From Gammaproteobacteria bacterium (GTDB taxonomy: Bacteria; Pseudomonadota; Gammaproteobacteria; Arenicellales; UBA868), in the NCBI GenBank assembly GCA_014239575.1, contig JAAZYQ010000007.1, positions 1 to 42,520 of the forward strand: DNA of 42,520 nucleotides. The letters are read 5' to 3'. This document shows, piece after piece, positions 16,986 through 34,684 of this stretch; within the stretch, counting starts at the first letter, position 1; each line of letters starts with the position of its first letter. Both the position numbers and the translations under genes were made by a program. A model generated the notes under the pieces. It saw nothing but the letters and a program-made list of their open reading frames with translations. It was not told the origin of the DNA and ran no database searches.

Positions 16986-17963
16986 ATGTATCAATACGAG
17001 GCCTACGAAGATCCGATGCAGCGCCCACGGTACACGGGCTTGGCTACCTTTATGCGTGCACCCTATCAGGAAACCTGGCAGGGGCAGGGGGTCGACATCG
17101 GTCTCATCGGGGTGCCCTTTGACGGCGGCGTGACCAACCGCCCCGGAGCTCGGCACGGCCCGCGTGAAATCCGCAACCAGTCGAGCCTTATGCGCCGACG
17201 TAACCAGTCCAGCGGCATAGCCCCTCATGACATATGCACTGTCGCCGATTTGGGGGACGCCTGGGTCCAATCGCCTTTTCACCTGGAAAAAAGCCTGGAC
17301 GAAATCCAGGCGTTCTTCGCTCGAGTTAATTCAGATGGCATCGTTCCGGTCTCCGCCGGAGGCGATCATTCGATCACTTTGCCCATCCTGCGGGCGATCG
17401 CGACAGATGCACCGGTAGGGTTGATACATTTCGACGCCCACTGCGATACTGGTGATGATTATTTAGGTTCGAAATTTCACCATGGAGCCCCTTTTCGCCG
17501 CGCCGTCGAGGAAGGCCTGGTAGACCCGAAACGCACCATCCAGATCGGCATCCGCGGTTCACTGAACGATCTTGATCAGTGGCAGTTCAGTCACGAAACG
17601 GGGATGCGGGTGATCTATATGGACGAATTCTACGAGATGGGCGTCAAGGCCGTAATCGAAGAGATTCACCGGGTAGTGGGTGAGGAGCCCTCGTACCTCA
17701 CCTTCGACGTAGATGGTCTGGATCCGGTTTATGCTTCAGGTACCGGCACGCCAGAAGTCGGCGGGTTTAGTTCGGTAGAGGCACAGTTGATGATTCGTGG
17801 GTGCCGGGGCCTGAATCTGATCGGCGGTGATCTGGTTGAGGTTGCGCCAGCGTTTGATCCCAGTGGTAATACTGCGTTGACGGGAGCGACCATGATGTTC
17901 GAGATTCTGTGTGTCGTAGCCGATGCTGTATCTTCCCGTAAGGCTCCTGAGAGTACAGTCTGA
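16986..17963 (+). CDS. Agmatinase-family ureohydrolase
   Basis: The product (325 residues) is a binuclear manganese ureohydrolase that releases urea from a guanidino compound. All six metal-ligand positions are present: His128 (GGDHS), Asp150, His152 and Asp154 (FDAHCD), and Asp241 and Asp243 (TFDVDGLDP). The segment NRPGARHGP near residue 51 and the PEVGGFSS loop near 256 are typical of agmatinase and guanidinobutyrase. Substrate is not decided by sequence: agmatine, 4-guanidinobutyrate, guanidinopropionate or guanidine are all possible. A strong AAGGAGG site precedes the ATG. It is followed after 70 bases by a NitT/TauT-type ABC transporter on the same strand, which may import its substrate. 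Confidence 0.88.
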   Translation: MYQYEAYEDPMQRPRYTGLATFMRAPYQETWQGQGVDIGLIGVPFDGGVTNRPGARHGPREIRNQSSLMRRRNQSSGIAPHDICTVADLGDAWVQSPFHLEKSLDEIQAFFARVNSDGIVPVSAGGDHSITLPILRAIATDAPVGLIHFDAHCDTGDDYLGSKFHHGAPFRRAVEEGLVDPKRTIQIGIRGSLNDLDQWQFSHETGMRVIYMDEFYEMGVKAVIEEIHRVVGEEPSYLTFDVDGLDPVYASGTGTPEVGGFSSVEAQLMIRGCRGLNLIGGDLVEVAPAFDPSGNTALTGATMMFEILCVVADAVSSRKAPESTV

Positions 17964-18033
17964 ATCGAAGGGCACGGGAGACCCGACCCTAGATCGGAAT
18001 TTTAATTGCGACAATTTCGGAGAAGGGATCACA

Positions 18034-19029
18034 ATGAATGCCAGAAATTTTATGCGACGACCTATTGTGCGGTTGGGTTGGCTGCTCTTCGGGTTACTTC
18101 TGCCCTCACAATTTGTTGGCGCGGGCGAGATTCGCCTTGGGGTTCTCAAGTTTGGCACTGTCAACTGGGAGCTCGATGCCATGGTGCATAATGGCTTTGC
18201 TGAGGCCGAAGGGGTCGATCTGACCATCGTAGCGTTGGCTAATAAACTTGCCACCAGTGTTGCTCTACAGTCTGGCGACGTCGACATGATCGTGACCGAC
18301 TGGATCTGGGTCTCACGCCAGCGGGCAGCCGGTGCAGATTTCACCTTTGCGCCGTATTCCGCGGCGGTGGGTGCGCTCATGGTGCCGCCGGACTCGACCA
18401 TCAAGAACCTTTCCGACCTCGCTGGTAAACGGGTTGGCATCGCTGGCGGACCGGTGGATAAGAGTTGGGTACTGTTTAAAGCGCTTGCGAAGGCCCGATA
18501 TGATCTGGATCTGGACCAGCAGGTAGAACGCGTATTTGGTGCGCCGCCCCTAATCAACCAGCAAGTATTATCCGGGGGGGTCGACGCTGCGGTTAATTTC
18601 TGGCATTACAACGCTCGGCTCAAGGCAGCAGGATTACGCGAAGTCGTTGCTGTAGCAGGTACCGCTGCAGCTTTGGGCATTGTTGATTCGGTGCCTATGC
18701 TTGGTTATGCGTTCAGCGCCAGTTGGGCCGAAGATCATCACGAGGACGTGATCGGTTTTCTCAAGGCGAGTCGTACCACCAAGGCTCTGTTGGCCCAATC
18801 AACAACACAATGGCAGCGGCTTCGACCTCGGATGAAGGCCGCGGAAGATGCGGTCTTTGAGGCGTTAATAGCTGGCTACCGTACCGGTATTCCGGCCCAC
18901 TGGGGTACTGAAGAGCGTAGGGCAGCCGCAAATCTTTTTGCAGTCATGGCTAAGGCGGGCGGCAAACGACTCGTCGGCGACTCACTCAGTCTTGCGCCTG
19001 GGACCTTCTGGGCCGATTGGTCTTTTTAA
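18034..19029 (+). CDS. NitT/TauT-type ABC transporter substrate-binding protein
   Basis: This is a periplasmic binding protein of the NMT1/SsuA/TauA fold, 331 residues from the ATG at 18034 (AGAAGGG ribosome binding site). A basic N-terminus and hydrophobic stretch form a signal peptide ending near FVGAGEIRLGV. The body has the typical pattern VLKFGTVNWELDAM, then ALQSGDVDMIVTDWIWVSRQ (a loop that reads out ligand in these proteins) and LAGKRVGIAGGPVDKSW. Substrates in the family include taurine, sulfonates, nitrate and thiamine precursors; none can be named here. Permease and ATPase genes follow immediately. The open frame extends upstream to 17923, but that part overlaps the ureohydrolase end and is not signal-like. 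Confidence 0.88.
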   Translation: MNARNFMRRPIVRLGWLLFGLLLPSQFVGAGEIRLGVLKFGTVNWELDAMVHNGFAEAEGVDLTIVALANKLATSVALQSGDVDMIVTDWIWVSRQRAAGADFTFAPYSAAVGALMVPPDSTIKNLSDLAGKRVGIAGGPVDKSWVLFKALAKARYDLDLDQQVERVFGAPPLINQQVLSGGVDAAVNFWHYNARLKAAGLREVVAVAGTAAALGIVDSVPMLGYAFSASWAEDHHEDVIGFLKASRTTKALLAQSTTQWQRLRPRMKAAEDAVFEALIAGYRTGIPAHWGTEERRAAANLFAVMAKAGGKRLVGDSLSLAPGTFWADWSF

Positions 19030-19036
19030 GACCCCT

Positions 19037-19786
19037 ATGCCGCCTCCGGCAAATCTGTGGTGGTCGTTGATATCGTTACTGGTGTTGCTAGGCCTTTGGC
19101 ATCTTGGGGCAAGTTTTGCGGACAGTCGGGTATTGCCAGGTCCGTTGGTGGTTCTCAGTGTCCTAATCGAGGGCATAGGCTCGGGTGAGATTCTCTATCA
19201 TCTCGCTGTGACCCTGGCTCGGGTCGCGGCGAGCTTCGTGTTGGCTATGTCCATCGGAGTAGCGGTTGGTATAGCGATGGGTCGGTTATTAGGCCTTAAC
19301 CGTTTTCTGGATAGTTGGCTGATTTTCTTTTTGAATCTCCCCGCGCTTGTTACCATCATCCTGTGTTACGTTTGGTTTGGTCTGATTGAAATTGCTGCGG
19401 TGCTGGCGGTAGCTATCAACAAGATTCCCAATGTCGTTGTCACGGTACGCGAAGGAGCACGTGCACTCGACCGCGACCTTGACGAAATGTGCCGCGTCTA
19501 TCGTCTTAATGGTATGGCGCGTTTACGTCATGTCATACTGCCTCAGCTTTCACCTTACTTGTTAGCGTCAGTGCGGTCGGGGCTTGCGCTGATATGGAAG
19601 ATCGTCCTGGTTGTGGAACTGCTGGGTAGAAGTAACGGAATTGGGTTTCAATTAAGTGTGTTTTTCCAAATGTTTGATGTGGCGAACATATTGGCCTACT
19701 CAATTGCCTTTATCGTGGTTGTTCAGATTATTGAATGGTTCGGCTTGCGGCCGCTTGAGATTACCTTAAACCGGTGGCGCCGATGA
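19037..19786 (+). CDS. NitT/TauT-type ABC transporter permease
   Basis: This inner-membrane permease of the SsuC/TauC type has 249 residues from the ATG at 19037, seven bases after the binding-protein stop. Five or six hydrophobic segments are seen. The coupling EAA-type loop appears as REGARALDRDLDEMCRVYRLNG (about residues 139-160) followed by the ILPQLSPYLLASVRSGLALIWK segment. That order is characteristic. Its end overlaps the ATPase start in an ATGA junction. The open frame also reaches back to 18938, inside the binding-protein gene, which is unlikely to be used. Confidence 0.88.
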   Translation: MPPPANLWWSLISLLVLLGLWHLGASFADSRVLPGPLVVLSVLIEGIGSGEILYHLAVTLARVAASFVLAMSIGVAVGIAMGRLLGLNRFLDSWLIFFLNLPALVTIILCYVWFGLIEIAAVLAVAINKIPNVVVTVREGARALDRDLDEMCRVYRLNGMARLRHVILPQLSPYLLASVRSGLALIWKIVLVVELLGRSNGIGFQLSVFFQMFDVANILAYSIAFIVVVQIIEWFGLRPLEITLNRWRR

Positions 19787-20508
19787 GTAGCCTACAGGTC
19801 AACTTGCGGGGAAAAACTTTTCCGGGGGTAGCACAAGCGCCGCCACACCATGCATTAGCTTCAATTAAACTCACAATTACGCACGGTCAGTTCGCGTGTA
19901 TTACCGGCCCGTCAGGCTGTGGCAAGACAACGTTGCTTAACGTACTAGCGGGCCTGGATCATGATTACGATGGCGAGATTCACCTACCGCTCATATCGGA
20001 ACACCAGCAACCGGTTATCGGCTACGTATTCCAGGCCCCCCGGCTGCTACCCTGGCGGACAGTAGAGCAGAACCTCACTCTTATCAAGGAGCGATCGGCC
20101 AGTACGGCCGATGTCGGTGAACTGCTTAGTCTGACCGGCCTGACGGATTTTTGCCACGCCTATCCTGAGCGCTTGTCTACCGGTATGCAGCGGCGCCTTG
20201 CTTTGGCGCGGGCTTTCGTAGTCGAGCCGGACTTACTGTTGCTTGATGAGCCATTCGCCTCGCTCGATGAGCCAACGGCTGCGCGACTGCGTTTGCTGCT
20301 GCTATCGATATGGCGCAGGCACTCCACAACAGTGATTTTTGTAACCCACGACTTGCGTGAGGCAATCCAGTTGGGGCAACGGATCATCCGGTTGACTGGC
20401 GCACCGGGTAAAGTCGATCTGGATATGCCAATTCCCCTTAACCCAACAGAGCGCTTGGATACACAGGTAATCGAGGCCTGGCGAACTCGAATTCTTCAAC
20501 CAGGGTAA
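19783..20508 (+). CDS. NitT/TauT-type ABC transporter ATP-binding protein
   Basis: The ATPase (241 residues) energises the importer. Walker A is GPSGCGKTTLLN near residue 46, the signature motif is LSTGMQRRLALARAF, and Walker B with its catalytic Glu is LLLLDEPFASLDEPTA. The switch histidine lies in FVTHDLREAIQLG. The ATG at 19783 overlaps the permease TGA. A GTG three codons upstream is an alternative start. Family neighbours are SsuB, TauB and ThiZ. It completes a three-gene importer. Confidence 0.92.
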   Translation: MSSLQVNLRGKTFPGVAQAPPHHALASIKLTITHGQFACITGPSGCGKTTLLNVLAGLDHDYDGEIHLPLISEHQQPVIGYVFQAPRLLPWRTVEQNLTLIKERSASTADVGELLSLTGLTDFCHAYPERLSTGMQRRLALARAFVVEPDLLLLDEPFASLDEPTAARLRLLLLSIWRRHSTTVIFVTHDLREAIQLGQRIIRLTGAPGKVDLDMPIPLNPTERLDTQVIEAWRTRILQPG

Positions 20509-20601
20509 TTATGTTCGATTTGGATCGAAGGGCGCTGGAGTTGCATCGCAACTAAAGCGAGCTAAAGGCCCTGATAGAACATCATTTGCGGAGACATAGA
20601 T

Positions 20602-21027
20602 ATGCGCATGCTCACCACCGTTGTTATTCTGATATCGGTAATGGCTGTCGGGGAAGTAGTCATGGCGGAGGGTAATCTGTCACGTCGCCCGGTTGCGTTA
20701 CCAGAGTTGGAGCTCGCCACACAAGACGGATTTGGTATTTCCCAGACCGAATACCAGATGGAGACCGGTAAGGCCTATAAACTGGAGATCAGATCCACCG
20801 GGATCGAGGAGTGCGCGTTCAGGGCAGACGAATTTTTTCGTAATATCTGGTTGCGCAAGGTTGAGGCTGGTGGTCTCGAAATCAAGGCGGCACAACTGAA
20901 TGAGCTTGAATTTGAGACTGAGGCCGAAGTCGAGATTTTTTTTGTTCCGATCAAACCTGGCCGCTATCCCTACGGGTGCAAGGGCCTTGAAGATCGTGGT
21001 TTGTCAGGGTTGTTTATCGTTCGTTGA
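20602..21027 (+). CDS. Secreted cupredoxin-like protein lacking copper ligands
   Basis: The 141-residue product starts with a signal peptide (MRMLTTVVILISVMAVGEVVMAEG) after a GGAGA site. The C-terminal part, FFVPIKPGRYPYGCKGLEDRG followed by LSGLFIV, resembles the end of a cupredoxin, where a Pro-Gly-Tyr turn leads to the Cys, His and Met copper ligands. Here Cys126 is present, but the His is missing and the Met position is Leu134. No upstream ligand His is evident either. A second Cys (71) could pair with Cys126. The middle is acidic (ELEFETEAEVE). It follows the ABC importer by 93 bases and converges on the quinoprotein-linked transporter genes. The function is unknown; the fold assignment is inferred from one region. 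Confidence 0.6.
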   Translation: MRMLTTVVILISVMAVGEVVMAEGNLSRRPVALPELELATQDGFGISQTEYQMETGKAYKLEIRSTGIEECAFRADEFFRNIWLRKVEAGGLEIKAAQLNELEFETEAEVEIFFVPIKPGRYPYGCKGLEDRGLSGLFIVR

Positions 21028-21044
21028 TATGCATAGAACTGGTG

Positions 21045-22244
21045 TTACATTCGACAGTTTGACTCGGCTGAATCGATTCCCAGTGTGTCTAGGTTATTGA
21101 ATCGGTGCAAGAATCCTGGTAGGGGTGCGCGCGTGACCACAGCGTTGTGCAGGTGTAGCAATAACGGCTGGCGCAATTGGTGATCCCACGGACGAAAATT
21201 GCCCGGTGCCCCCTTATAGGCATCAAATGTCATATCGTTTGACACCAGAAACCGTTTGATTTCTAAGGGCTCGATAGAACTGGTTCGGGTAATCGCTTCC
21301 ACAATGGTTTTTACCGCGGCCCAACCGGCATAGTCGGTGTCGGTCATGCGGCGTTTGGCAACGCGATCGAAGCGCTGATTCAACTGTGGTGCCCCATACC
21401 GTTCCCAGGTCCAGTGCCAGGCCCCCGCATGCAATCCTTCCGAACCAACAACCAGAGTAGGTTTCTGGGTTTGGTAAGGTACGTAGCGGCCAAACTCACC
21501 AACCGAGTCGGCGAGGAAGATTACATCAACGCGTGCCCCGCTGGTAATCAAGGCGACGTTGTTCTTCTCGCGAATGCGCGGGTCATTGCTCAGCACAAAT
21601 GAGCGCCGATCAACTTGTTTAAGGCGAAACTTAGCCGCCGCTTTGGCAAAGGCATCGGCCAGTAGTTGATCATTCGGCGCGTCTCCTTGGAGTATCAGAA
21701 CCCTTTTCCAGTTTTTACTTGAAAGAAATTGCGCCAGTGCGTCCATCAACATGGCATGGCTGGGCATAGTATGGAAAAGAGTTGGCGAGCATGCTGACCC
21801 ACGCAGTATGTCATCAGCATGTCGGGCATTGAGCACAATTACTGGTTGATCTTTCAACGACTGTCCAATTTCTAAAACCTCAGCTAGCGGCAGGTCGGCA
21901 ATAAAGACAGTGGCTCCGGTATCATTAAATGAAGTATGGATTGCATTGACTGCCGACTCGCCAGGGTTCAACGCCTGCTCGTTAAGGGTAAATCGAAGCC
22001 CCAATCGCCTACCTTTGACTCGGCTCTCGCGCAGGGCTGTTTTGACGCCCTGTAGGGGCCGTTGCTGGTTGCGTAGCACGACGCCGGTGTACGCCCGGTG
22101 CCTTTGATAAGTGCTGTCATCATCGCGATAAAGGTAGATAAACTGAAAGTCCTGTGTTGCAGTTGTAGCCGAAACTGCGCCGGCACCCAACCAGAGTGCA
22201 AGCATCGGCACCAGTACCATGTGCCAAGGTTTAATAGTCATCAA
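21045..22244 (-). CDS. PQQ-dependent catabolism-associated ABC substrate-binding protein (LutA-like)
   Basis: This periplasmic protein (399 residues) has a signal peptide (KPWHMVLVPMLALWLGAGAVSA) and a type I binding-protein body. Typical segments are FIYLYRDDDSTYQRHRAYTG, TVFIADLPLAEVLEIGQ, CSPTLFHTMPSHAMLMDALAQ and the C-terminal YKGAPGNFRPWDHQLRQPLLL. It matches what I know of the TIGRFAM family of PQQ-linked ABC binding proteins. The equivalent gene in Methylorubrum is lutA, in a cluster needed for lanthanide transport. It is the last gene of a four-gene minus-strand set and overlaps the beta-propeller gene by 14 bases. The ligand is unproven: a lanthanide complex is inferred from homologues. 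Confidence 0.85.
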   Translation of the reverse strand: MMTIKPWHMVLVPMLALWLGAGAVSATTATQDFQFIYLYRDDDSTYQRHRAYTGVVLRNQQRPLQGVKTALRESRVKGRRLGLRFTLNEQALNPGESAVNAIHTSFNDTGATVFIADLPLAEVLEIGQSLKDQPVIVLNARHADDILRGSACSPTLFHTMPSHAMLMDALAQFLSSKNWKRVLILQGDAPNDQLLADAFAKAAAKFRLKQVDRRSFVLSNDPRIREKNNVALITSGARVDVIFLADSVGEFGRYVPYQTQKPTLVVGSEGLHAGAWHWTWERYGAPQLNQRFDRVAKRRMTDTDYAGWAAVKTIVEAITRTSSIEPLEIKRFLVSNDMTFDAYKGAPGNFRPWDHQLRQPLLLHLHNAVVTRAPLPGFLHRFNNLDTLGIDSAESNCRM

Positions 22245-23223
22245 TCAGTATCCCATAGGGCACCCGGCCTACGGGGATAGATTTAATTACCTTAAGATTA
22301 GTTGTGTCGATAATCGATATATCATCGGACAGGCCGTTCGCCACATAGAGTTTTTTCTCGTCATGGGTCAGACTGAGCCCCCAGGCACGTCGGCCCACAA
22401 GTATGTACTCGATGACTTTTCGCGACGCCACATCCACTACTGCTACGTGGTTGGCCCTGCCAAGTGCAACGTAGGCGCGTGACCCATCTCGCGTAATCAA
22501 AAGGTCTACCGGGGTAACCTGTTCTTTACGAAAGCCGGTAGGTAGAAATGCAATATCTCCCGTGAGTTTGAGTAAAGTGACATCGATAATATTGACCATA
22601 CCCGCCAGTTCGGCAGATACCCAGAGCTCTTGTTCATCTGGTGTCAATGCGAAGCGTCGCGGACGCGTATCGACCAGAATGTCCTTGATTACGGTACCGG
22701 CGCTCACATCAATGACGTGTACCAGGTCAGCAGCTTCAGAAGCGACGAAAACCAGTTTCCCGTCCGAGGTAACCTGGACTCCTTCAGGTTCTTCGCCGGT
22801 CAAAAACTCGCCTAAAAACTGCCCAGTACCTATGTCATACACTGAGACTGCAGCGTCCTCTTCGTTGGAAACATATAGATGAATACCATTGGGGTGTAAG
22901 TCGAAGGTCTCGGGCGCGGCCACATTGCGTATTCGGCCTACAAGCGCTTGTGTTGCTATGTCATAGATTGCGATAACGTCATCGTCAGCACAACCAACCA
23001 AAAACGCCTCGCGGCTCGCGGTAAAGTGCATCCCACGGGGTCGGGCGCATGAAGGGAATGTTCGAATTATCTCGTCATTGCTGTCTAGCACTGTGATGGT
23101 ACTGCTCTTCTCGTTAGCCACGAAACGAAGCCCCGTATTTTTCGCAAGAACAAGGCCAGCGTTTGCAAGAAAAAGCACAGTGGCCAGGGTTGCGGCCGCA
23201 AACATGTGTGACTTTCGGCGCAT
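22231..23223 (-). CDS. Secreted YVTN beta-propeller protein of the PQQ-associated ABC system
   Basis: From the ATG at 23223, with a strong GAGAGGAGA site, the product has 330 residues. It begins with a signal peptide (MFAAATLATVLFLANAGLVLA). The rest is about seven beta-propeller blades with the repeated pattern of a PDG or DE turn, then LYVSN or VFVAS, then a VYDI or VIDV strand. Good examples are HLYVSNEEDAAVSVYDI and KLYVANGLSDDISIIDT. This is the PQQ_ABC_repeats type found beside quinoprotein dehydrogenases (LutB-like by position). The open frame reaches 23673 but that part overlaps the permease gene. It probably acts in the periplasm with the binding protein. Confidence 0.85.
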   Translation of the reverse strand: MRRKSHMFAAATLATVLFLANAGLVLAKNTGLRFVANEKSSTITVLDSNDEIIRTFPSCARPRGMHFTASREAFLVGCADDDVIAIYDIATQALVGRIRNVAAPETFDLHPNGIHLYVSNEEDAAVSVYDIGTGQFLGEFLTGEEPEGVQVTSDGKLVFVASEAADLVHVIDVSAGTVIKDILVDTRPRRFALTPDEQELWVSAELAGMVNIIDVTLLKLTGDIAFLPTGFRKEQVTPVDLLITRDGSRAYVALGRANHVAVVDVASRKVIEYILVGRRAWGLSLTHDEKKLYVANGLSDDISIIDTTNLKVIKSIPVGRVPYGILIDDY

Positions 23224-23285
23224 TGATTCTCCTCTCACGCTACGTTGGCCCCGTGCGCTGTGCCCTGGGTTAGAGTCGATATCCA

Positions 23286-24113
23286 TCAGTTTTTCTTGGA
23301 AATCCCCCTCGTTTTCTGGCGGGATGCTATCTGTGGTGCATTGTAGCGCCACGCAGCGAATGTGAAAATTAGCACCAGACAACTGGTTGTGATTATCAAT
23401 GCCTGTGTATCTAGCTTTAGGTAAAGCGCGTGGCGCAATAGCTCGACAGCGTAAGTGAATGGGTTGATCGTGCAGATCCAAAAAATAAACTCGTTCGACT
23501 CCCGCATACGCCACAGCGGGTATAGTGCTGATGACAGAAAAAACATCGGAAAAATAACAAAATTCATTATTCCTGCGAAGTTTTCCAACTGCCGAATCGT
23601 TGCGGACAAGGCCAGGCCAATAGCCCCGAGCATCAGTCCGCTCACGATCAATGCTGGAGCCAGCGCAAACCACCCTGCGGCCGGAATGTCGATTACTGTA
23701 AGTTCGGCTATCAGCAGGAAAGCGTATACCTGAAATATTGAGATCATAGTTCCAGCTGTCAGTTTAGCCAATAACAGGTAACTGCGGGGCAGGGGGCTCG
23801 TCAGCAGCAGGCGCATGCTGCCCATTTCCCGGTCATAAACCAGTGCCAGCGAGCTCTGCATACCATTGAACAGCTGGATCATGGCGATCAGACCGGGAAC
23901 GATGTAGGTTTCATAGGTGATGTAGGTTTCATAGGGAGGTGTAATCGATACACCAAGGATGCTGCGAAAGCCAGCGGCGAATACCAGAAGCCAGATCAGG
24001 GGCCGGACCAGGGCTGCGATAAATCGAGTCCGCTGGTGAATAAAGCGAAGCGACTCTCGCCAGATAATGGCTGCAAGCGCAACTGTATAAGGGTGTCGAG
24101 AATCCGTTATCAC
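23286..24113 (-). CDS. ABC-2 type permease of the PQQ-associated transporter (LutF-like)
   Basis: This 275-residue inner-membrane protein has six hydrophobic segments and the ABC-2 pattern: FIHQRTRFIAALVRPLIWLL near the N-terminus, YIVPGLIAMIQLFNGMQSSLALVYDREMG-type coupling region, and INPFTYAVELLRHALY near the C-terminus. ABC-2 permeases usually export, yet this one is paired with a periplasmic binding protein, the known peculiarity of the Lut/PedA1A2BC systems. Its start lies four bases after the ATPase stop. Bases 23901-23935 carry an 18-base direct repeat encoding a doubled YETY segment. A weakly covered 62-base gap separates it from the beta-propeller gene. Confidence 0.86.
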   Translation of the reverse strand: MITDSRHPYTVALAAIIWRESLRFIHQRTRFIAALVRPLIWLLVFAAGFRSILGVSITPPYETYITYETYIVPGLIAMIQLFNGMQSSLALVYDREMGSMRLLLTSPLPRSYLLLAKLTAGTMISIFQVYAFLLIAELTVIDIPAAGWFALAPALIVSGLMLGAIGLALSATIRQLENFAGIMNFVIFPMFFLSSALYPLWRMRESNEFIFWICTINPFTYAVELLRHALYLKLDTQALIITTSCLVLIFTFAAWRYNAPQIASRQKTRGISKKN

Positions 24114-24117
24114 GGCG

Positions 24118-24867
24118 CTAGTCAGCGAGACTCTGGTCGGTGCAAGTCAGCCGTTCGAACAGCGATAGCACAGTGGGGCAAGCATATTGTTGCAATAGTT
24201 GAGTTACTGGACCAGCGCTGCACACCTGTCCCTTGTTCAGTATTACCAGGTCATCCGTTTCGCGAATCTCATCAACGAGATGAGATGCCCACAGGACCGT
24301 AATGTTCTCACTAGTGGTCAGTTGGTGTACATGGGTAACGAGCTCGTTGCGCGTCCGTATGTCGAGCCCAACGGTGGGTTCATCTAGAATCAGGACCGCC
24401 GGCTGGTGAACCAGGGCTCGAGCGATCTCCAGGCGCCGACGGTGCCCACCATTGAGTTCGCGTACTTTGTCGCGACGCTGGTCAGTAATATTCATCAGTT
24501 CAAGTGCTTGATTTATTTTCCAGCGCGCGTCCTTTCCCCACCAGCCGCGCAGAGCTGCTCCGTAAACCATATTCTGTTCGAGAGTAAGGTCTAGATCCAA
24601 CGCGGATTGCTGGAAAACGATCCCGACCCGCCCCAAGGCCTGGCGTGGGTGTTTGTGTATGTCGATGCCGTCGATGGAAATTTCGCCCCTGCCCCGTCCC
24701 AAGAGCCCTGTCAGGAGGGATAGCAGCGTAGATTTACCTGCACCGTTGGGCCCAAGCAGCCCTGTGAACTTTCCGGCCCGGGCCTGGAAACTGGCGTCGG
24801 CGAGGGCGGGTTTGCCAGAGTAGCTAAAAGAAAGGTTTCTGACTTCGATTCCGTTCGATGAGTGCAT
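24118..24867 (-). CDS. ABC ATPase of the PQQ-associated transporter (LutE-like)
   Basis: The 249-residue ATPase has Walker A GLLGPNGAGKSTLLS near residue 36, the signature region RELNGGHRRRLEIARAL in which LSGGQ is replaced by LNGGH, Walker B VLILDEPTVGLDIRT and the switch segment VLWASHLVDE. The LNGGHRRR variant is what I expect for the PQQ-linked family of ATPases (TIGR03864 type; PedA1 in P. putida). It is first in the minus-strand four-gene set and is divergent from the alcohol dehydrogenase across a 339-base gap, so both are probably controlled together. Confidence 0.88.
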   Translation of the reverse strand: MHSSNGIEVRNLSFSYSGKPALADASFQARAGKFTGLLGPNGAGKSTLLSLLTGLLGRGRGEISIDGIDIHKHPRQALGRVGIVFQQSALDLDLTLEQNMVYGAALRGWWGKDARWKINQALELMNITDQRRDKVRELNGGHRRRLEIARALVHQPAVLILDEPTVGLDIRTRNELVTHVHQLTTSENITVLWASHLVDEIRETDDLVILNKGQVCSAGPVTQLLQQYACPTVLSLFERLTCTDQSLAD

Positions 24868-25206
24868 CTGCGTATATTAGATTATTGGAGCCAACGGTTT
24901 TGGCGCCCGTGTTTTTGCCCCCAACTAATCGATGCCACTACTAGATACTGCTGTATTAGTTTTGCATCAGGAGCACTCGTAAGTATGCGATAGATACGAC
25001 CGCGTAAATACATATTTTTGATATGGTATATACTTATTTCAACGCGCAGATTCATACGAGCCATCGCGGGGCGTTGCTTGCTCCGGACGACAGTTTGCGC
25101 TAAGGTGACAAGGAGAGAATTTGGTAAGAATTCAGGCGACCGTGGAAGGGCCTTTGCCCTTAGATTTAGCGCATCGCCAACAGCCGAAAAAGGGGGCTTT
25201 AAGAGT
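24868..25206. promoter_or_regulatory. Divergent control region between the transporter and the alcohol dehydrogenase
   Basis: This 339-base stretch separates two divergent genes and must hold both promoters. It has an AT-rich core around 25000-25035, including TTGATATGG and TATATACT at 25024-25031, but I cannot fit a convincing -35/-10 pair. The end nearest the dehydrogenase holds a strong ribosome binding site (25110-25115) that belongs to a possible leader peptide, listed separately. No riboswitch fold was recognised. Confidence 0.5.
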
Positions 25207-25210
25207 ATGA
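25121..25210 (+). CDS. Possible 29-residue leader peptide ahead of the alcohol dehydrogenase
   Basis: A TTG at 25121 lies five bases after an AAGGAG site, the best Shine-Dalgarno sequence in this region. The frame encodes 29 residues (begins [10 protein letters not shown], ends KKGALRV). It stops in TGA at 25208-25210, overlapping the ATG of the dehydrogenase as ATGA. This arrangement would couple translation of the two. There is no known relative and TTG starts are rare, so this could be chance. The sequence is shown directly; the role is inference. Confidence 0.3.
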
Positions 25211-26922
25211 GAGTGACAAATAACTATTTGCGCGGTGCTTCGTTTTTGAGCATTCTGGCACTGCTGACAATGGCGCCAATGATGGCCCGTTCTCAGGAGA
25301 CGGGATCCGGAACTTTATATGGCGATATGCATACCGTAACTCAGGACATGTTGAACCGCGCGGCAGGAGATGGGAACAACTTCCTGCACACCAACGGCAA
25401 TTACGAGCAGACTCGATATTATCCTGCTCGCCAGATCAATGCGTCTAATGTGGGGAATTTGCGGCCAGCGTGGATTTTTCAGACCGAAGTTGTCGAATCG
25501 ATGGAGACCAGCCCGATCATTGTCGATGGGGTGATGTATGTCACAACATCGTTTAACCATGTATACGCATTGAATGCTGAGACTGGTGAACAGATTTGGC
25601 ACTACAAGCATAAGATGGGACCGATTACGACGTATTGCTGCGGGCCAAATAACCGCGGTGTCGCGGTGTATGGCGACATGGTCTACATGGGCACGTTGGA
25701 CGCTAGGTTATTGGCATTGGATGCCAAAACCGGAAAACTTCTGTGGAATGTCGAGGTTGGTGATCCCGAACTGGGATACAGCGAAACGATGGCACCGACA
25801 GCGGTTAATGGCAAGATTCTGATCGGCACCAACGGTGGTGAATATGGTATCCGTGGTTTCGTCAAGGCCTACGACTGGAAGACCGGTGATCTGTTGTGGC
25901 ACTTTCACACAACGCCGGAAAACTCGGTTGGTGTTTGGGCGACCCACGACGCGACCGGTCGCGATATGCTGCGCGACATCGACGCAGAGAAGAATAATCT
26001 CAAGGCCCAGGGCGATCCGTACAAAACGCTCGGCGGTGGTGTCTGGCAGAACCCATCGATCGATCTTGTCAACAATCGGGCGTATTTCGTAGCTGGTAAC
26101 CCTTCGCCAGACCTCGATGGTTCTCTGAGACCGGGGGATAACCTCTACACGAACTCTCTAATCGCCGTGGATCTGGATACTGGTGAGTATATTTGCCACT
26201 TCCAGTACATCGCACATGATGTATGGGATCTTGATGCAGTTAGCCCAACAATTCTGACTGATGTCATGGATAACGATGGTAACAGCGTGCCTGGTGTGTT
26301 GCACGGCGGCAAGACCGGCCATGTCTATGTGCATCGGGCTGATGACTGCAGTCTGATCCGCCACTCGGAGGCAATGGTGCCGCAGGAGAATATGTGGGTC
26401 TTACCGACTGCCGAAGGGGAGCGAATGTTGCCTGGGGCGAATGGCGGGGTCGAATGGTCGCCTATGACTGTTGATCCAAACCTGCGTCTGACTTATGCCA
26501 TCAATCTGCACCAGCCAATGACTTACCACGTGGAAAGTTCACCGTATCCGGAAGGCAAGTTGTGGCTTGGTGGCGCGTTCAAAGTCATTGCCGACGAGGA
26601 GCAGTGGGGCAACGTAACGGCTGTTGATTACGACACGGGTAACATCCGTTGGAAAGTAAAGACTCAGCAGCCAATGATTGGTGGAATTATGGCAACTGCT
26701 GGCGGTGTGGTGTTTGCCGGAGAAGGCAACGGCCTGTTCAAGGCCTACGATTCGGAAACTGGCTCAGTGCTGTGGAAATTCCAGGCAGGCGCTGGCGTAA
26801 ATGCACCTCCCTCGTCCTATACCGTGAATGGAAAGCAGTACATCGTGGTTGCGGCCGGCGGTAACGTACAGTTGAACTTCAAGCGCGGCAACAACATTAT
26901 CGCTTTCGCGCTGCCCGATTAA
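25207..26922 (+). CDS. PQQ-dependent alcohol dehydrogenase, lanthanide-type signature
   Basis: This periplasmic quinoprotein (571 residues from the ATG at 25207) oxidises alcohols with PQQ and passes electrons to a cytochrome c. It has a signal peptide ending near MARSQETG. Eight propeller blades carry W-motifs such as [16 protein letters not shown]. The vicinal disulfide pair is Cys144-Cys145 (TTYCCGPNN). Metal-site residues expected from the family are Glu212 (GGEYGIRG) and Asn282 or nearby in GVWQNPSID. The catalytic Asp341 is in HDVWDLD and the residue two further on is Asp343. That second Asp marks lanthanide-dependent enzymes such as XoxF and ExaF/PedH; calcium enzymes have Ala or another small residue. 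The substrate cannot be read off, and it is not a close XoxF match (QNPSID replaces the XoxF segment). The frame stays open to 25018, but that part has no signal-like start. Confidence 0.92.
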
Positions 26923-26948: not shown

Positions 26949-26982
26949 AAAAGGGGCCGGCCCAGTGCCGGCCCCTTTTTTT
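26949..26982 (+). terminator. Intrinsic terminator between the dehydrogenase and the cytochrome
   Basis: A nine-base-pair GC stem (26953-26961 with 26967-26975, loop CCAGT), flanked by AAAA on the left and TTTTTTT on the right, lies 30 bases after the dehydrogenase stop. It should end most transcripts before the cytochrome gene. Confidence 0.9.
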
Positions 26983-27012
26983 GTCCGTCGACGATTCTCT
27001 AGGTGCTCGATT

Positions 27013-27579
27013 ATGGCGAGAAAAATTTTAACCGTCGCTTTGATGTTGCTAGGTATGCAGCTCTCTACCCAGGCTGTGGCGCAATCCGGTGTCAGCGCCG
27101 CGACCTGTATGGGCTGTCACGGCGCTCAGGGCTTCCCCTTGGGCCCTACCATACCCGTCATTCACGGGCAGCACTTTTACTACCTCTATGTGCAGCTAAA
27201 AGACTACAACTCCGGCCTTCGCGCCAACCCGATCATGTCTGCGATGGTTGCTGATCTCTCACGTGATGACATGAAAGTACTCTCCCAGATGTTTTCCGAG
27301 GCAGTTTGGCCGAATATGGGCTTCAGCGCATCTGAAGATCAGGTGTCAGCAGGTGAAAAAGCCCTGGTATCCGGGCAATGTGTCCAATGCCACCGGGGTG
27401 GGTTTGAAGGCGATAGCCGAGTGCCTCGGCTGGCGGGGCAGCAGGTGGAGTACCTGGAAAAAACGATGCAGGATTTCAAAAATAAGGTCCGGCTGAATTC
27501 GCCAGCGAAAAGTGCGCTACTGGGGGCGTATTCGGATGAAGAAATTCGGGCAATGGCAGAGTATCTTGCTGACCTGTAG
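27013..27579 (+). CDS. Diheme cytochrome c, c4-like
   Basis: From the ATG at 27013 (TAGGTG site) the 188-residue product has a signal peptide (ILTVALMLLGMQLSTQAVAQ). It also has two heme-binding motifs: CMGCH at 32-36 and CVQCH at 123-127. The two halves are similar, as in cytochrome c4. In the first half the axial Met region is NPIMSAM (72-78). In the second half the matching segment is NSPAKSALL (162-170) and lacks Met, so the second heme may have another ligand. It is the likely electron acceptor or relay for the dehydrogenase upstream, but a terminator stands between them. The frame reaches upstream to 26965 across the terminator; that start is rejected. Confidence 0.88.
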   Translation: MARKILTVALMLLGMQLSTQAVAQSGVSAATCMGCHGAQGFPLGPTIPVIHGQHFYYLYVQLKDYNSGLRANPIMSAMVADLSRDDMKVLSQMFSEAVWPNMGFSASEDQVSAGEKALVSGQCVQCHRGGFEGDSRVPRLAGQQVEYLEKTMQDFKNKVRLNSPAKSALLGAYSDEEIRAMAEYLADL

Positions 27580-27620: not shown

Positions 27621-27652
27621 ATGCTGCCTACAATAGATGCTACCTACAATAG
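27621..27652. repeat. Tandem 16-base duplication at the end of the ankyrin gene
   Basis: Bases 27621-27636 and 27637-27652 are direct copies differing at one position (ATGCTGCCTACAATAG and ATGCTACCTACAATAG). The upstream copy on the minus strand contains the stop codon of the ankyrin gene. It is probably a local slippage duplication. Confidence 0.8.
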
Positions 27653-28561
27653 TAGTTCTTTCAGTTCCGGATCGGTAGCAAGGTCCCAGGCAGTCTTGCC
27701 CTCATTATCAGTCATGGTCCGATCTGCTCCATGGCCCAGAAGAAGTTCAACAATGTGTTTGTGACCGCGCTGGCCAGCGATCATCAGCGCCGTCCGACCG
27801 CGATCATCTTGTGCGATTAGATCGGCGCCTCGCGCCAGTAACAGACTTACCGTTTTCGCGCCGTCGGACGGGGGCACTTCATTGGTGTGCCCGGACGCCC
27901 ACATTAAAGCAGTCAAAGAGTAGCCATAACGCGAGTCAACCGATTCCCCAGCATCCAGTAAAACCCCAACAATACGACTGAACCCCTTCGCCGCCGCATA
28001 AACCAAGGCGCCTTTGCCAGTGGCATCGATACCGCCAATGCTTGCACCAGCGTCAAGCAATGATTTCACAATTAGAAAGTTACCGTTGTAGGCAGCCGCG
28101 ATTAAGGGTGTTACTTTGCGCTTATTTATTGCGTTTGGATCAGCACTGTGCTGCAAAAGAAGGGTAATGGTTCGGCGGCGATTCTCTATAACAGCCTGAA
28201 GAAGTGGAGTACTGCCGCGGACGTTGGTCGGGTCTACTATGGCTCCCTGATCAAGCAAGAACTCGAGGAATTGTTTCTCCCCATGCTGGGCTGCCCGCGC
28301 AACAGCTGTATTTCCAAACTGGTCACGCGCCTTGATCGAGGCTCCACGGGAGAGCAGCTCTTTGGCAATGCTGATACAGCCGCGGTCTGCCGCATCGAAT
28401 AAAAAAAAATTAAGAGTGCGAGTGTTCAGTTGACTCTGCTTGATCTGGAACCGGGCGCGCACGTCGTTACACGCCAAAGGCTCACCGGCAACTGCGGCGG
28501 TTAATCCAGTGCTGAGGGCGAGTAGAAGCGTGGCGACCCCGACACGCCATTGCAGCGACAT
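27644..28561 (-). CDS. Secreted ankyrin-repeat protein
   Basis: From the ATG at 28561 the product has 305 residues. It starts with a signal peptide (VGVATLLLALSTGLTAAVAG), then about seven ankyrin repeats. Consensus blocks such as GSTPLLQAVIENRRRTITLLLQ, ALMIAGQRGHKHIVELLLGHGAD and GKTAWDLA are clear. The open frame extends 80 codons further upstream, but that part lacks a signal sequence and repeats, so the internal ATG is chosen. Ankyrin proteins with signal peptides bind partner proteins in the periplasm. It is convergent with the cytochrome, 64 bases away, and may serve the quinoprotein system, though this is only positional. Confidence 0.8.
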   Translation of the reverse strand: MSLQWRVGVATLLLALSTGLTAAVAGEPLACNDVRARFQIKQSQLNTRTLNFFLFDAADRGCISIAKELLSRGASIKARDQFGNTAVARAAQHGEKQFLEFLLDQGAIVDPTNVRGSTPLLQAVIENRRRTITLLLQHSADPNAINKRKVTPLIAAAYNGNFLIVKSLLDAGASIGGIDATGKGALVYAAAKGFSRIVGVLLDAGESVDSRYGYSLTALMWASGHTNEVPPSDGAKTVSLLLARGADLIAQDDRGRTALMIAGQRGHKHIVELLLGHGADRTMTDNEGKTAWDLATDPELKELLL

Positions 28562-29170
28562 CTTAGGGCGACCAGGGCCGCTAGCATTGGGCGAAAATCG
28601 CCGGCGGGAGTCTGTCCTGTCGATCACAGGAATCCCAACGCGTAACTTCGGATACTTTGGCATAACGAAAAAATAACCGATTCCATGCGGGAAGAGCAAG
28701 TCTTCCAAAATGGGAGCAATGCTCAGCGAGATGTGTCGACACCCAAGGCAGTAGTGGAAAAGGGCTATTCCTTTGCGGCTAGACGGGGAATCGGGCGACA
28801 AGTTTGAATCCTACGGGGCCGCTGGTCTTTGCCTGTGACGGCAATGGCCTGTTGTTAAAAGATAAGCTAAACACGTGAGCCCTCCAAGGGGTATGCTTGA
28901 TCTTCAGACAGAAACCAGGTTATCAGGGACTCCTTGGCGACCAATTAACCTGCACCTTTGTACGCGAACTGAAATGTTTGGGTAACCAGGACAATGGGCA
29001 GTCTTTCGCAGGGTATCCAGGAAGTCACTGATGGGTAGCGATTTTCCACCGGCTGACCTAGAAGTCGTCCTTTGTATCCGGAGTATTGCGCTGATGGGTG
29101 CGCCCGGACTTAGCAGTTGGAAAGGCAATTCTTGGTATAGCGACAACTTTTTAACGCTATGGGTTGGACG
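28562..29170. other. Gene-poor interval before the acyl-CoA dehydrogenase
   Basis: About 600 bases without a gene I can support. The part up to 28801 is open on the minus strand as an extension of the ankyrin frame. A minus frame at 28904-29146 and a plus frame at 29031-29200 have no recognisable sequence features. No tRNA or repeat was found. Confidence 0.5.
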
Positions 29171-31422: not shown

Positions 31423-32547
31423 TCAGGTGACCCGGGGTAGCGTGATGCCCAGTTTCTCTCGAAGGTCTTGAATTTCCCCAATTGGTTCAAGTGCATGACG
31501 CTGGGGAATGATTTCGTTGAGCCATTGAGCGAGAGGTGTCAGTAGTGGATCACCAAGATGCTGTTGCAGCAGGTTGATGACGCGAGGGAGGTGTCGAAGG
31601 TACGCGGGCTTATCATCGCGCAGCGCCAGTCGGCTGAAGATACCGGCGACTTTGCAGTGGCGTTGTACGCCTAGTACCCGGTACCAGGCATTGAAATTTT
31701 CCGTATCTTCGAGCGACATGACCTTCAGATAACGCCTTCGCATCGTGTTAACCAGTTCGGGGTTCAGATCGCGTCGTGCATCTTCCAGTAGGGAGACCAC
31801 GTCATAGGCTATTGGCCCGATCCGCGCATCCTGAAAATCCAGCAGGCCAATTTGCCCCTTGGGTGATTCCCCTGGAACCCGCATCAGATTGTCTACATGG
31901 AAATCGCGCAACACCAGAGTGGTGATCGGGGGTGTCAGTGCCTCGAATATGGCTTTCCAGATCTGCTGGTAACGCTGTCGATCAGTTTGGGCCACTTTGG
32001 CACCTGTAATCAATGGGACATACCAGTCCACCATCAATAAGGCTTCGTCCAGGAAAGCACCAAGATCATACGCGGGTAAGGCGAGATCGGCGGCTCTGGG
32101 TTGTTGGTGCAGCATGGTCAGTGCATCAATGGCATAACAGTAAAGAGTCTGCTCATCCTCGCCGGCATTCAGCAGTGCCGTAAAAGTGTCGTTGCCGAAA
32201 TCCTCTATCAGCGCAAAACCGTTAACGCTATCCACTTTGCCGATCTGTGGTGAGCGCAATCCCAGTGTCACCAGGTGTTTCGCTATGCGTACAAAGACAT
32301 CGACATTTTCATAATCCGGCGGCGCATCCATCAGAAGCCATTGCCCGTTAGAAGTGGCCAGGCGGAAATAACGGCGAAAAGAGGCATCCGGGCACAACGG
32401 CTGCAAGCCAGTCTCAGCGAGGCCCGCCTGGGACAGGAATGTCCGGCGCAGGGTGTCTCTGGTTGGGGTGTCAGTCAGCAAGGCTGGGAATAAAAGTGAA
32501 GTTGTGATTTGTCGGCATTGTCTTAGAAGATACCATGCAGATGCCAC
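31423..32547 (-). CDS. AmgK-like anomeric N-acetylmuramate/N-acetylglucosamine kinase
   Basis: The 374-residue product belongs to the aminoglycoside-phosphotransferase-like family of AmgK, which phosphorylates MurNAc or GlcNAc at C1 in peptidoglycan recycling. Motifs are PDASFRRYFRL and LLMDAPPDYENVDVFVRIA in the N-terminal lobe, LRDFHVDNLM (catalytic Asp215, Asn220 in GTG numbering) and LLDFQDARIGPIAYDVVSLLED. Normally murU follows amgK; here csaA follows. The GTG at 32547 overlaps the imuB end by 25 bases. A TTG at 32481 is an alternative start that removes 22 residues. The overlap couples it to the SOS cassette. Confidence 0.85.
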   Translation of the reverse strand: MASAWYLLRQCRQITTSLLFPALLTDTPTRDTLRRTFLSQAGLAETGLQPLCPDASFRRYFRLATSNGQWLLMDAPPDYENVDVFVRIAKHLVTLGLRSPQIGKVDSVNGFALIEDFGNDTFTALLNAGEDEQTLYCYAIDALTMLHQQPRAADLALPAYDLGAFLDEALLMVDWYVPLITGAKVAQTDRQRYQQIWKAIFEALTPPITTLVLRDFHVDNLMRVPGESPKGQIGLLDFQDARIGPIAYDVVSLLEDARRDLNPELVNTMRRRYLKVMSLEDTENFNAWYRVLGVQRHCKVAGIFSRLALRDDKPAYLRHLPRVINLLQQHLGDPLLTPLAQWLNEIIPQRHALEPIGEIQDLREKLGITLPRVT

Positions 32548-34043
32548 TGGCCGCTGTTCAGATCACGGAAAATCCACGTTTTTATGGCACTGGTTGTATC
32601 CTGATAGTAATCACGGCGCACCAGATAGTCATCCCACCAGCCGCTACAGATACGCTCCCGGCAGTCCAGTTGCTGCAGCAATCCCTGGCTTGCCTGGATA
32701 GGGCGTGGTGCTTCAAGCAGCCACAAGGGTCGCTGTGCGCCGCCAGACAGGAGTCCAGTTTCACCCGGCGTGCAATGGCGCCAGGCTTTTTCCGGTCTAT
32801 GGTCAGCCTGTATGCAAATACCATGCACGACTGCTGGCCCCAGCCGGCTCTGCAGGCGCTCTATCAGTGTGCTCCCATCGTCGGTATCACTTTGCATTTC
32901 CTGAAAAAGGCCGCCGCTGATTTGTGTTGCCCGAGTAAAGCGATGCACCTGTAATGTGATCTTTGTTATAGGACGAGTCGTTTGCGCAGTTTCAAATGCT
33001 AACTGTGAAAGAGATAATAAATGTTGAGTGTCTCGGCAAGGCCGAGTAAGTGGTACCGGGATCTTCATCAGCGGACCTTTGGTGTCGGCCAGGCACCAGT
33101 GAAGGTGTTCGACCAGAATGTGGTGTTGGCATAGATAACTTTCCAGGCACACCAGCAGGCGCTCGATAAAGGGAAGTAAAAGCGGAGTTTCGACTCCTTC
33201 TGCCGGCAAGGTAGCACTTCGGGTAAATTCTGGCGGGAGTGTAAAAAAGGCTTGTGGGTCCGGGGCCTGGCCCAATAGCTTATCCAGGCGACCCACTATG
33301 TCTGGACCCAGGCGCCGTGCCAGGCCATTGCGTGGCAGACGCTGTAGGTCGCCTATAGTCCTGATGCCGAGTTGCATTAGCAGTCGATGCTGTTTTGGCT
33401 GCGTTGCCAGCATCTGCGCTGGCAGAGCGCGCACGGCGGTATTCAGGTTGCTTTGACTGGTCACGCAAATTGATTTTCCCGCACGAGCGCACAGCAGTGC
33501 ACTGGCCGGTGTCGGCATCAGGGCGATACAAGGTAGCAGAGCTTTATCGGTAATCCAGGAGCGAATCTGCCCCAATAATGATCGGGTGCCGCCATAAAGT
33601 CGCAAACTGCCGGCTATATCGAGCAGTAAACTGTCTTCAAGCAGGGTAATGGCGGGTGTCCAGCACGCTGCTTTGATCGCCAATTGTGTTAGCTGCATCT
33701 TCTCTGCCGCGGTATCCCGGACTACCGCTTTAAGGGTAGGCGCCAGGGTTTGGGCTGCGGCTAATGTCATACCGGGGCATACACCGTTTTTCTGTGCCTG
33801 CTGGTTTGGAGTAACTATTTGTTGTATCTGCCCCTGTTGTTCATAAACGGCAATTGCCTGGCTATTATTGCCATGTCCAAGCGACTCCAGCGACAGGTAT
33901 GGCAGGTATATAGCGAGCCACAGGTGATCAGGGTGAGCGACTGGTTCGACCGGGGCATGAGTCGGCAGCAGGCTGCGTGCCAGGGATAGGCTGCTGCCAG
34001 CAACTTTCCTTCCAGAGGCATTTTTTTTCTGATCTACCCCCAC
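32523..34043 (-). CDS. imuB: ImuB-type inactive Y-family polymerase
   Basis: ImuB is the clamp-binding hub of the ImuA-ImuB-DnaE2 mutasome in SOS translesion synthesis. The 506-residue product (GTG at 34043, two bases after imuA) begins the polymerase-like part at LWLAIYLPYLSLESLG. In that segment the catalytic Asp of active Y-family enzymes is absent. The LLEDSLLLDIAGSLRLYGG region and helix-hairpin-helix segment LGIRTIGDLQRLPRNGLARRLG follow. The C-terminus has the family SGWWDDYLVRRDYY region and IFRDLNSGQWHLHGIF. A longer frame to 34124 overlaps imuA by 79 bases and is less likely. No dnaE2 lies downstream. Confidence 0.92.
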   Translation of the reverse strand: MGVDQKKNASGRKVAGSSLSLARSLLPTHAPVEPVAHPDHLWLAIYLPYLSLESLGHGNNSQAIAVYEQQGQIQQIVTPNQQAQKNGVCPGMTLAAAQTLAPTLKAVVRDTAAEKMQLTQLAIKAACWTPAITLLEDSLLLDIAGSLRLYGGTRSLLGQIRSWITDKALLPCIALMPTPASALLCARAGKSICVTSQSNLNTAVRALPAQMLATQPKQHRLLMQLGIRTIGDLQRLPRNGLARRLGPDIVGRLDKLLGQAPDPQAFFTLPPEFTRSATLPAEGVETPLLLPFIERLLVCLESYLCQHHILVEHLHWCLADTKGPLMKIPVPLTRPCRDTQHLLSLSQLAFETAQTTRPITKITLQVHRFTRATQISGGLFQEMQSDTDDGSTLIERLQSRLGPAVVHGICIQADHRPEKAWRHCTPGETGLLSGGAQRPLWLLEAPRPIQASQGLLQQLDCRERICSGWWDDYLVRRDYYQDTTSAIKTWIFRDLNSGQWHLHGIF

Positions 34044-34045
34044 TA

Positions 34046-34684
34046 TCAGGTCGACACGACCGATACAGCAGGTACCGTTCGGCGCTGTACCAGTAATCCT
34101 TGGCGCAATGGCCCGCCGCGACATTTAATAATGTCAATGTAAACGCCGTTCGCAGCGTGTCGGCAGTGCAGACGTAAAGCCGCCATGCTGTGAGAGGCTG
34201 CTCCATAGTGATTTTGAAAACAGATTCCCAGTGTCTGCCCCTGTTCGGCTGCAAGTTGTAGTCGTCGTGTGGCTGTGCGCTGTAGTTTGTTCGACCAGCA
34301 AAGCACAGCGCTGCAGGCTCGAGAGCGTAGCGATTGCTCTGTTGACCACAATACATCAGTGCTGCCGGTAGCACGTATGAGCAGTATTTTTGACAGGTCC
34401 AAGCCGTTCTGGTGTAGACCGGGTGCGTAAGGAGTCGCCGGTGGCGTGATCCAGGCCTGCCAGGGTCTTTGTGGTGCTAGTGTTGCCAGGGCCGGCAATA
34501 ACAGCCACAAGGGACTGTATGTGACATCCTCTACCAGGATCTCAGTCAGTGCGTCTACTGGCCAGCCACCATTTGGCAGGTGCTGATCCAGCACGGCAAA
34601 ACCGGTTGCGATGGTTCGTCCTGGCGCAGATATTTTCGAGCCCCGCCAGATATCCCGCCGCTGCAGGCAGGATTCCAAACTCAC
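34046..34684 (-). CDS. imuA: ImuA, SOS translesion synthesis protein
   Basis: ImuA is a RecA/SulA-like protein that works with ImuB in mutagenic repair. The 212-residue product shows IWRG near the N-terminus, then [24 protein letters not shown], the family hallmark. It starts at GTG within GTGA, overlapping the lexA stop, so translation of the two is coupled. Its C-terminal half has a RecA-like central region without clear Walker motifs, as is normal for ImuA. Confidence 0.9.

Follow-up and report, generated by a model that had tools for sequence, protein, structure and literature searches.

What does an ATP-binding cassette (ABC) importer carry whose genes stand between a ureohydrolase gene and the genes of a lanthanide-type quinoprotein? 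This question is raised by a contig of a Gammaproteobacteria bacterium (JAAZYQ010000007.1; our G000:C356), which was analyzed at its full length of 42,520 bases, called the window below, and which belongs to an assembly of 378 contigs and 77% completeness. An earlier note on this DNA had described five same-strand genes converging on a lanthanide-type cluster. Indeed, all five plus-strand genes are present in the window according to the list of open reading frames (ORFs) and to Pfam and NCBIfam searches, and the cluster was recognized by TIGR family matches and the WDLD motif of its dehydrogenase. The note suggested that the enzyme may use an imported guanidino compound or, alternatively, that the importer and the small secreted protein belong to the quinoprotein system and the enzyme is an unrelated neighbor. 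The gene neighborhoods, the comparison within the genus and the PqqT structures described below support this alternative: the run is probably a core ureohydrolase gene followed by the edge of an island of ~11 kb (about 18.0-28.8 kb) for lanthanide- and pyrroloquinoline quinone (PQQ)-dependent alcohol oxidation that carries an importer of the PqqT type and a protein of the LutC type. The genes of the run are the following.

16986-17963, plus strand: ureohydrolase, agmatinase-like (PF00491, E 6.7e-89; TIGR01230)
18034-19029, plus strand, start ATG: PqqT-type periplasmic binding protein with N-terminal signal peptide (PF09084, NMT1)
about 19037-19786, plus strand: ABC importer permease (PF00528; ORF listed from 18938, likely ATG at 19037)
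about 19783-20508, plus strand: ABC importer ATPase (PF00005; GTG at 19774 as alternative start)
20602-21027, plus strand: small secreted protein of predicted cupredoxin fold, LutC-like by position (no copper ligands; model, Foldseek, gene order)

The binding protein and permease genes are separated by 7 bp, and the permease and ATPase genes overlap by a few bases. This tight packing shows that the importer operon supposed in the earlier note is real, and the ureohydrolase gene, 70 bp upstream of the binding protein gene, is coupled less tightly. The small gene follows the ATPase gene after 93 bp and ends 17 bp from the convergent lutA/pedA1-like gene.

The binding protein leads directly to a putative ligand. 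In a phmmer search of PDB it matched 9b1u/9b1v and 9ooz with E values of 3.3e-58 and 1.1e-57, and the next match had an E value of 3.9e-5; the titles of these structures are PqqT with PQQ, PqqT with PQQ and Gd3+ (9b1v) and PqqT Y161W with PQQ. Identity to PqqT is 38% over 293 residues. An AlphaFold2 model (mean predicted local distance difference test score, pLDDT, 91.9), based on a 50-row alignment of the window protein and 49 of the 80 importer loci introduced below, was aligned to the three PqqT structures with Z scores of 39.4, 38.3 and 37.9 (2.0-2.2 Å, 295-298 residues), and the next fold was SsuA (Z 24.2). Furthermore, 28 columns are invariant in the 50 rows and 25 of them are identical in PqqT, among them Lys142, which aligns with K143 of the window protein. 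We take Lys142, located at the PQQ/metal site of PqqT, to contact PQQ. Ho and Cotruvo 2019 is reportedly the reference cited for PqqT; for the M. extorquens protein, excerpts of PMC12828617 and PMC12124388 give a dissociation constant (Kd) of 50 nM. Membership of the binding protein in the PqqT family is well supported by sequence and model comparison, and its ligand is presumably PQQ.

The earlier note had proposed comparing the neighborhoods of the binding protein across genomes. In a scan of genome contigs with this protein, 582 loci were confirmed, and the best 80 of them underlie all importer-locus counts given here (tblastn at a uniform limit for 31 proteins of the window; matches to ABC ATPases discarded below 37% identity); counts out of 79 leave out L025, which is from the same genus as the window. 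The permease accompanies the binding protein in 78 and the ATPase in 77 of the 80 loci. At least one Lut/Ped gene or a PQQ dehydrogenase gene lies in the fetched flank of 52 of the 79 loci outside the genus. The ureohydrolase occurs in one locus of the 80, namely L025 (0/79 elsewhere). Each of the 20 window genes outside the module, ureohydrolase included, matched none of the 79 loci, and seven of the 20 matched L025 only. The importer is located near PQQ dehydrogenase and lut genes on plasmids of Azospirillum lipoferum, Rhizobium leguminosarum, Tateyamaria omphalii and Alloyangia pacifica; in S. meliloti 1021 it is nested, together with the small gene, within the lut row adjoining xoxF, and on a plasmid of Roseomonas marmotae it adjoins pqqB/pqqC, with no lut genes in the stretch shown. 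The nearest named relative is the metagenome-assembled genome (MAG) bin89s (Gammaproteobacteria bacterium isolate), with 92% identity over the binding protein.

Two further observations concern these loci. In L018, L023, L082 and L104 (Alloyangia, Tateyamaria twice, a Rhodobacteraceae MAG), the binding protein gene is directly followed by the ATPase gene with no permease match; in these Roseobacter-type loci the binding protein or the ATPase perhaps works with another permease. A contig of a SAR324-cluster MAG (L026) carries the same module (PQQ dehydrogenase 77% and small-protein match 61% identical), a hint that it has moved between distantly related marine lineages.

The ureohydrolase itself passes the agmatinase model TIGR01230 (184.7 bits, cut-off 174.3) and reaches 284.8 bits with PRK02190 (cut-off 302). 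It was matched in all 20 genomes of the genus, the best place being 83-100% identical. The gene is (near) full length in 18 of them, one of which (G098) has an in-frame stop, and is cut by contig ends in G106 (271 residues) and G092 (197 residues). The binding protein is present in four of the 20 genomes (G000, G105, G100, G107), each time with permease and ATPase, LutA in three, and a PQQ dehydrogenase of at least 88% identity in three, with an additional distant match (40%) in G098; the contig of G100 ends directly after the ATPase gene. The ureohydrolase locus was fetched for 18 of the 19 other genomes (all but G092). In 13 of these loci, the acyl-CoA dehydrogenase gene that is located past the island in the window lies 0.4-2.9 kb downstream of the ureohydrolase gene. 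In two the contig ends first (G094, G106), in two the importer comes next (G105, G100), and in G107 an M24 peptidase gene follows, with the island on a separate contig. In one of the 13 (G091, L140:5412-8187), an 88-residue piece of the binding protein gene is present between the ureohydrolase gene and the gene that comes next where the island is missing; loss of the island would be expected to leave such a scar. As the ureohydrolase is found in all genomes of the genus and the island in few, the former is a core neighbor, while the island comes and goes; most likely, the enzyme is a chromosomal resident unrelated to the importer and the lanthanide system. Beside the island, G107 encodes one more PQQ dehydrogenase, which is distant (36% identical; L141:1822-3336).

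Different cargoes of the importer have to be weighed against these data. Uptake of a guanidino compound, be it agmatine, guanidinobutyrate or guanidine, as a substrate of the ureohydrolase, with the five genes as one catabolic operon, would agree with the common strand and the 70 bp spacing in the window and with the same gene order in G105 and G100, but none of the 79 importer loci outside the genus contains the ureohydrolase, most genomes of the genus possess it without the importer, the two lie on separate contigs in G107, and the binding protein is nearest to PqqT. This proposal of the earlier note was rejected on the co-occurrence counts and the comparison within the genus, and we regard it as extremely improbable. 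The wide gap between the PqqT structures (Z 39) and the next folds (Z 24), as well as the recurrent neighborhood with PQQ and lanthanide genes, also makes it very improbable that the cargo is another small ring compound or a sulfonate (thiamin precursor, aliphatic sulfonate), as could be supposed from the Pfam name NMT1 and from SsuA and Thi5 being the next folds.

A second importer for lanthanide (or for a lanthanide-PQQ complex), as opposed to one for free PQQ, would explain the repeated location beside Lut/Ped genes and the nesting in the S. meliloti lut row, and a PqqT structure with both PQQ and Gd3+ (9b1v) exists. However, the solved relatives bind PQQ according to the structure titles, and in Roseomonas marmotae the importer keeps company with pqqB/pqqC. 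Moreover, Lys142, whose replacement by Asp creates a tight lanthanum (La) site in PqqT (excerpt of PMC12828617), remains Lys in 50 of 50 rows. We consider this explanation unlikely.

If PQQ is the cargo, its source has to be considered. PqqB was found in none of the 20 genomes of the genus and PqqC in none of its four importer genomes (only these four were tested for PqqC). PqqE was over the cut-off in none of the 20; weak matches were present in 19 of them and likewise in 14 of 14 control genomes, and this search had no positive control. As a control for PqqB, 31 other carriers of PqqT were chosen, 24 of which had PqqB over the cut-off; PqqC was found in all four re-tested PqqB-positive carriers and was absent from all seven without PqqB over the cut-off. 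G047 and G048, single-contig genomes of the same order, encode a PqqT-type protein with no PqqB or PqqC found, and are candidates for a study of PQQ uptake. As no PQQ synthesis genes were found, the importer of the window probably scavenges PQQ for the lanthanide-type dehydrogenase. When 15 genomes that possess a PqqT-type gene were searched for an outer-membrane receptor, five gave a PqqU match at E 1e-8, strong in four; no match came from the four importer genomes found in the genus. One strong match belongs to G030, which carries a PqqT-type gene and in which PqqB and PqqC were not found.

The remaining part of the island contains the following genes.

21045-22244, minus strand: LutA/PedA1-like binding protein of a lanthanide importer (TIGR03863, E 2.7e-119)
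22231-23223, minus strand: LutB/PedA2-like YVTN beta-propeller protein (TIGR03866 over cut-off; ORF listed to 23673, start inferred)
23286-24113, minus strand: LutF/PedC-like permease (TIGR03861 over cut-off)
24118-24867, minus strand: LutE/PedB-like ATPase (TIGR03864 at cut-off, 302.3 vs 302.25 bits)
25018-26922, plus strand: PQQ-dependent alcohol dehydrogenase, WDLD (PF01011; true start probably within the ORF)
26965-27579, plus strand: secreted cytochrome c that has two CxxCH motifs and probably accepts the electrons of the dehydrogenase (PF00034)
27644-28801, minus strand: secreted ankyrin-repeat protein (PF12796)

In the convergent set (21045-24867), the match to TIGR03863 (398.3 bits) is just below the cut-off (413.6), and TIGR03866, TIGR03861 and TIGR03864 pass; judged by these family matches, the set is a lanthanide importer of the PedA1A2BC/LutAEF type. 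The dehydrogenase reaches 463.6 bits with TIGR03075 (cut-off 480.05). It has an Asp two residues past the catalytic Asp (WDLD), which is presumably the position of the lanthanide-type Asp within this motif, and Asp stands there in all nine ORFs retrieved by a motif search, a pattern that missed more distant dehydrogenases. Such an additional active-site Asp predicts lanthanide use (excerpt of PMC12628762). PedA1A2BC is required for efficient La-dependent growth of P. putida at nanomolar La (excerpt of PMC6839425), and in M. extorquens AM1, mutants in lutA, lutE and lutF have periplasmic La deposits (excerpt of PMC7391723). LutD, LutG, LutH and LanM were not seen in the gene list of the window, in which no search was aimed at them. 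In L032, L034 and Alloyangia pacifica (L018), too, a secreted ankyrin-repeat protein is encoded together with this type of dehydrogenase and cytochrome c. Elsewhere in the window, a translesion-repair cassette conserved in the genus is located beside lexA (ImuA-type protein, 34046-34684; DNA polymerase IV-like, ImuB-like protein, 32523-34124).

The small secreted protein has no Pfam or NCBIfam match. An iterated profile search recovered 17 ORFs of its family, distributed over 16 of the 108 sources covered, and by tblastn it was found in 168 plasmid records, nearly as many as contain the binding protein (176); no relatives were confirmed in viral contigs. Foldseek with an AlphaFold2 model retrieved cupredoxin-fold proteins (first match E 6.3e-7, among 50 matches listed), where we take the names of the matches (laccases, copper nitrite reductases, cupredoxins and related folds) to stand for the cupredoxin fold. 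No His or Cys column is conserved in a 16-row alignment, and His does not occur beyond residue 25 of the window protein. A function as a copper protein was rejected, since the His/Cys/His/Met ligands are absent. The copper-less cupredoxin of the earlier note therefore stands as a predicted cupredoxin beta-sandwich without copper ligands.

Its gene order suggests which protein this is. Of 149 genomes sampled from Beijerinckiaceae, the family to which a Microvirga carrier belongs, ten had a match to the small protein, nine of them strong, and in all nine strong loci fetched the gene lies between LutB-like and LutE-like genes. Five of the nine have the row lutA, lutB, small gene, 80-residue gene, lutE, lutF, lutG-like gene, and four of these five possess a three-loop lanmodulin-type gene. 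In AM1, lutA-lutG are META1p1778-1784 (excerpt of PMC7391723) and lutD is META1p1781 (PMC9260416). Because the row order in these five loci equals AM1 lutA-lutG, the small gene stands at the lutC position, and we infer a LutC-type protein, by gene order and not by direct comparison with AM1 META1p1780. In the window the small gene adjoins lutA instead of standing between lutB and lutE. When lutC is lost, AM1 shows a 9-h lag with La and grows at 0.11 vs 0.16 per hour (excerpt of PMC7391723).

Taken as a whole, the island could work as follows. The periplasmic PqqT-type protein would bind PQQ, captured from what other bacteria make (no PQQ synthesis genes were detected in the genus), and pass it to the permease and ATPase; the Lut system would supply lanthanide, and the periplasmic dehydrogenase would thereby be loaded with PQQ and metal. 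The small LutC-type protein may be a copper-free accessory of the convergent Lut/Ped importer. The use of the transported PQQ is presumably that of a cofactor for this dehydrogenase. A more far-reaching view, which we put forward tentatively as a possibility that is somewhat doubtful, is that the island is a cofactor-acquisition cassette for bacteria that do not produce PQQ: transporters for the cofactor (PqqT-type) and for the metal (Lut/Ped) would travel with the dehydrogenase and give a bacterium without PQQ synthesis or a recognizable PqqU a complete lanthanide enzyme, and the LutC-type protein would be a cupredoxin fold re-used, after loss of copper, as a lanthanide or PQQ chaperone.

Several observations weigh against the assignment of the importer to PQQ uptake for the lanthanide enzyme. 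The importer genomes of the genus are 77-91% complete, and PQQ genes could be missed; one absence is weak evidence at this completeness, although four together are hard to ascribe to gaps. No outer-membrane receptor was recognized in the 20 genomes of the genus with E. coli PqqU as query (E 1e-15). A periplasmic enzyme needs no cytoplasmic PQQ, which leaves the use of import across the inner membrane unexplained. V43, R97 and G309 are invariant in the 50 rows and differ in PqqT, where R97 is Gly; PqqT also has Leu and Phe in place of W90 and W92, each of them found in 49 of the 50 rows. Because of R97, W90 and W92, the ligand in the window could be a derivative or a complex of PQQ. No Lut/Ped gene or PQQ dehydrogenase was found in the fetched flank of 27 of the 79 loci, and among the 46 loci of at least 18 kb, 30 contain one and 16 do not. 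The model of the small protein is based on a thin alignment of six rows (pLDDT 75.3), and the profile of its family matched only filamins among PDB sequences, at E 0.02-0.9, which we took as chance. In five loci without Lut/PQQ matches (L029, L051, L054, L071, L092), no common theme was seen among 18 neighbor proteins scanned, which include energy-coupling factor (ECF)- and sugar-type ABC ATPases, a resistance-nodulation-division (RND) transporter and a propionyl-CoA carboxylase set, among others; several unmatched frames may not be genes.

The proposed assignment gives a specific ligand, PQQ, to an importer that databases label as taurine/nitrate-like or NMT1-like, and such importers often accompany genes of lanthanide enzymes in proteobacteria. 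Their presence in genomes with no detected PQQ synthesis would mean uptake rather than recapture of PQQ, and the LutC position gains a predicted fold. PQQ import by non-producers and a putative copper-free cupredoxin fold in lanthanide handling are the points of interest of this locus.

The statement of the earlier note that no system with this set is described does not hold for the parts, as PqqT and Lut/PedA1A2BC have been described, but still applies to the whole: the open-licence literature searched contains papers on PqqT and on lut genes, none of which names the complete gene set. The window enzyme matches the agmatinase/ureohydrolase family PF00491 over its full length and passes TIGR01230; it is not linked to the importer outside the genus. 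With PqqT of M. extorquens AM1 (9b1u, 9b1v, 9ooz), the binding protein shares the fold, 38% identity, 25 of 28 invariant residues and Lys142, but the host of PqqT makes PQQ (pqq genes are listed in an excerpt of PMC7391723), whereas no synthesis genes were found in the genus of the window. Like AM1 Lut and P. putida PedA1A2BC, the window has LutA, LutB, LutE and LutF and a protein at the LutC position; in contrast to them, it adds a PqqT-type importer, and the gene order is split and convergent. Another close arrangement is the xoxF-lut region of S. meliloti pSymB (excerpt of PMC12628762), whose single row comprises lutA, lutB, lutE and lutF together with the small gene and the PqqT-type importer, with a XoxF methanol dehydrogenase in place of the window's dehydrogenase and PQQ biosynthesis genes nearby.

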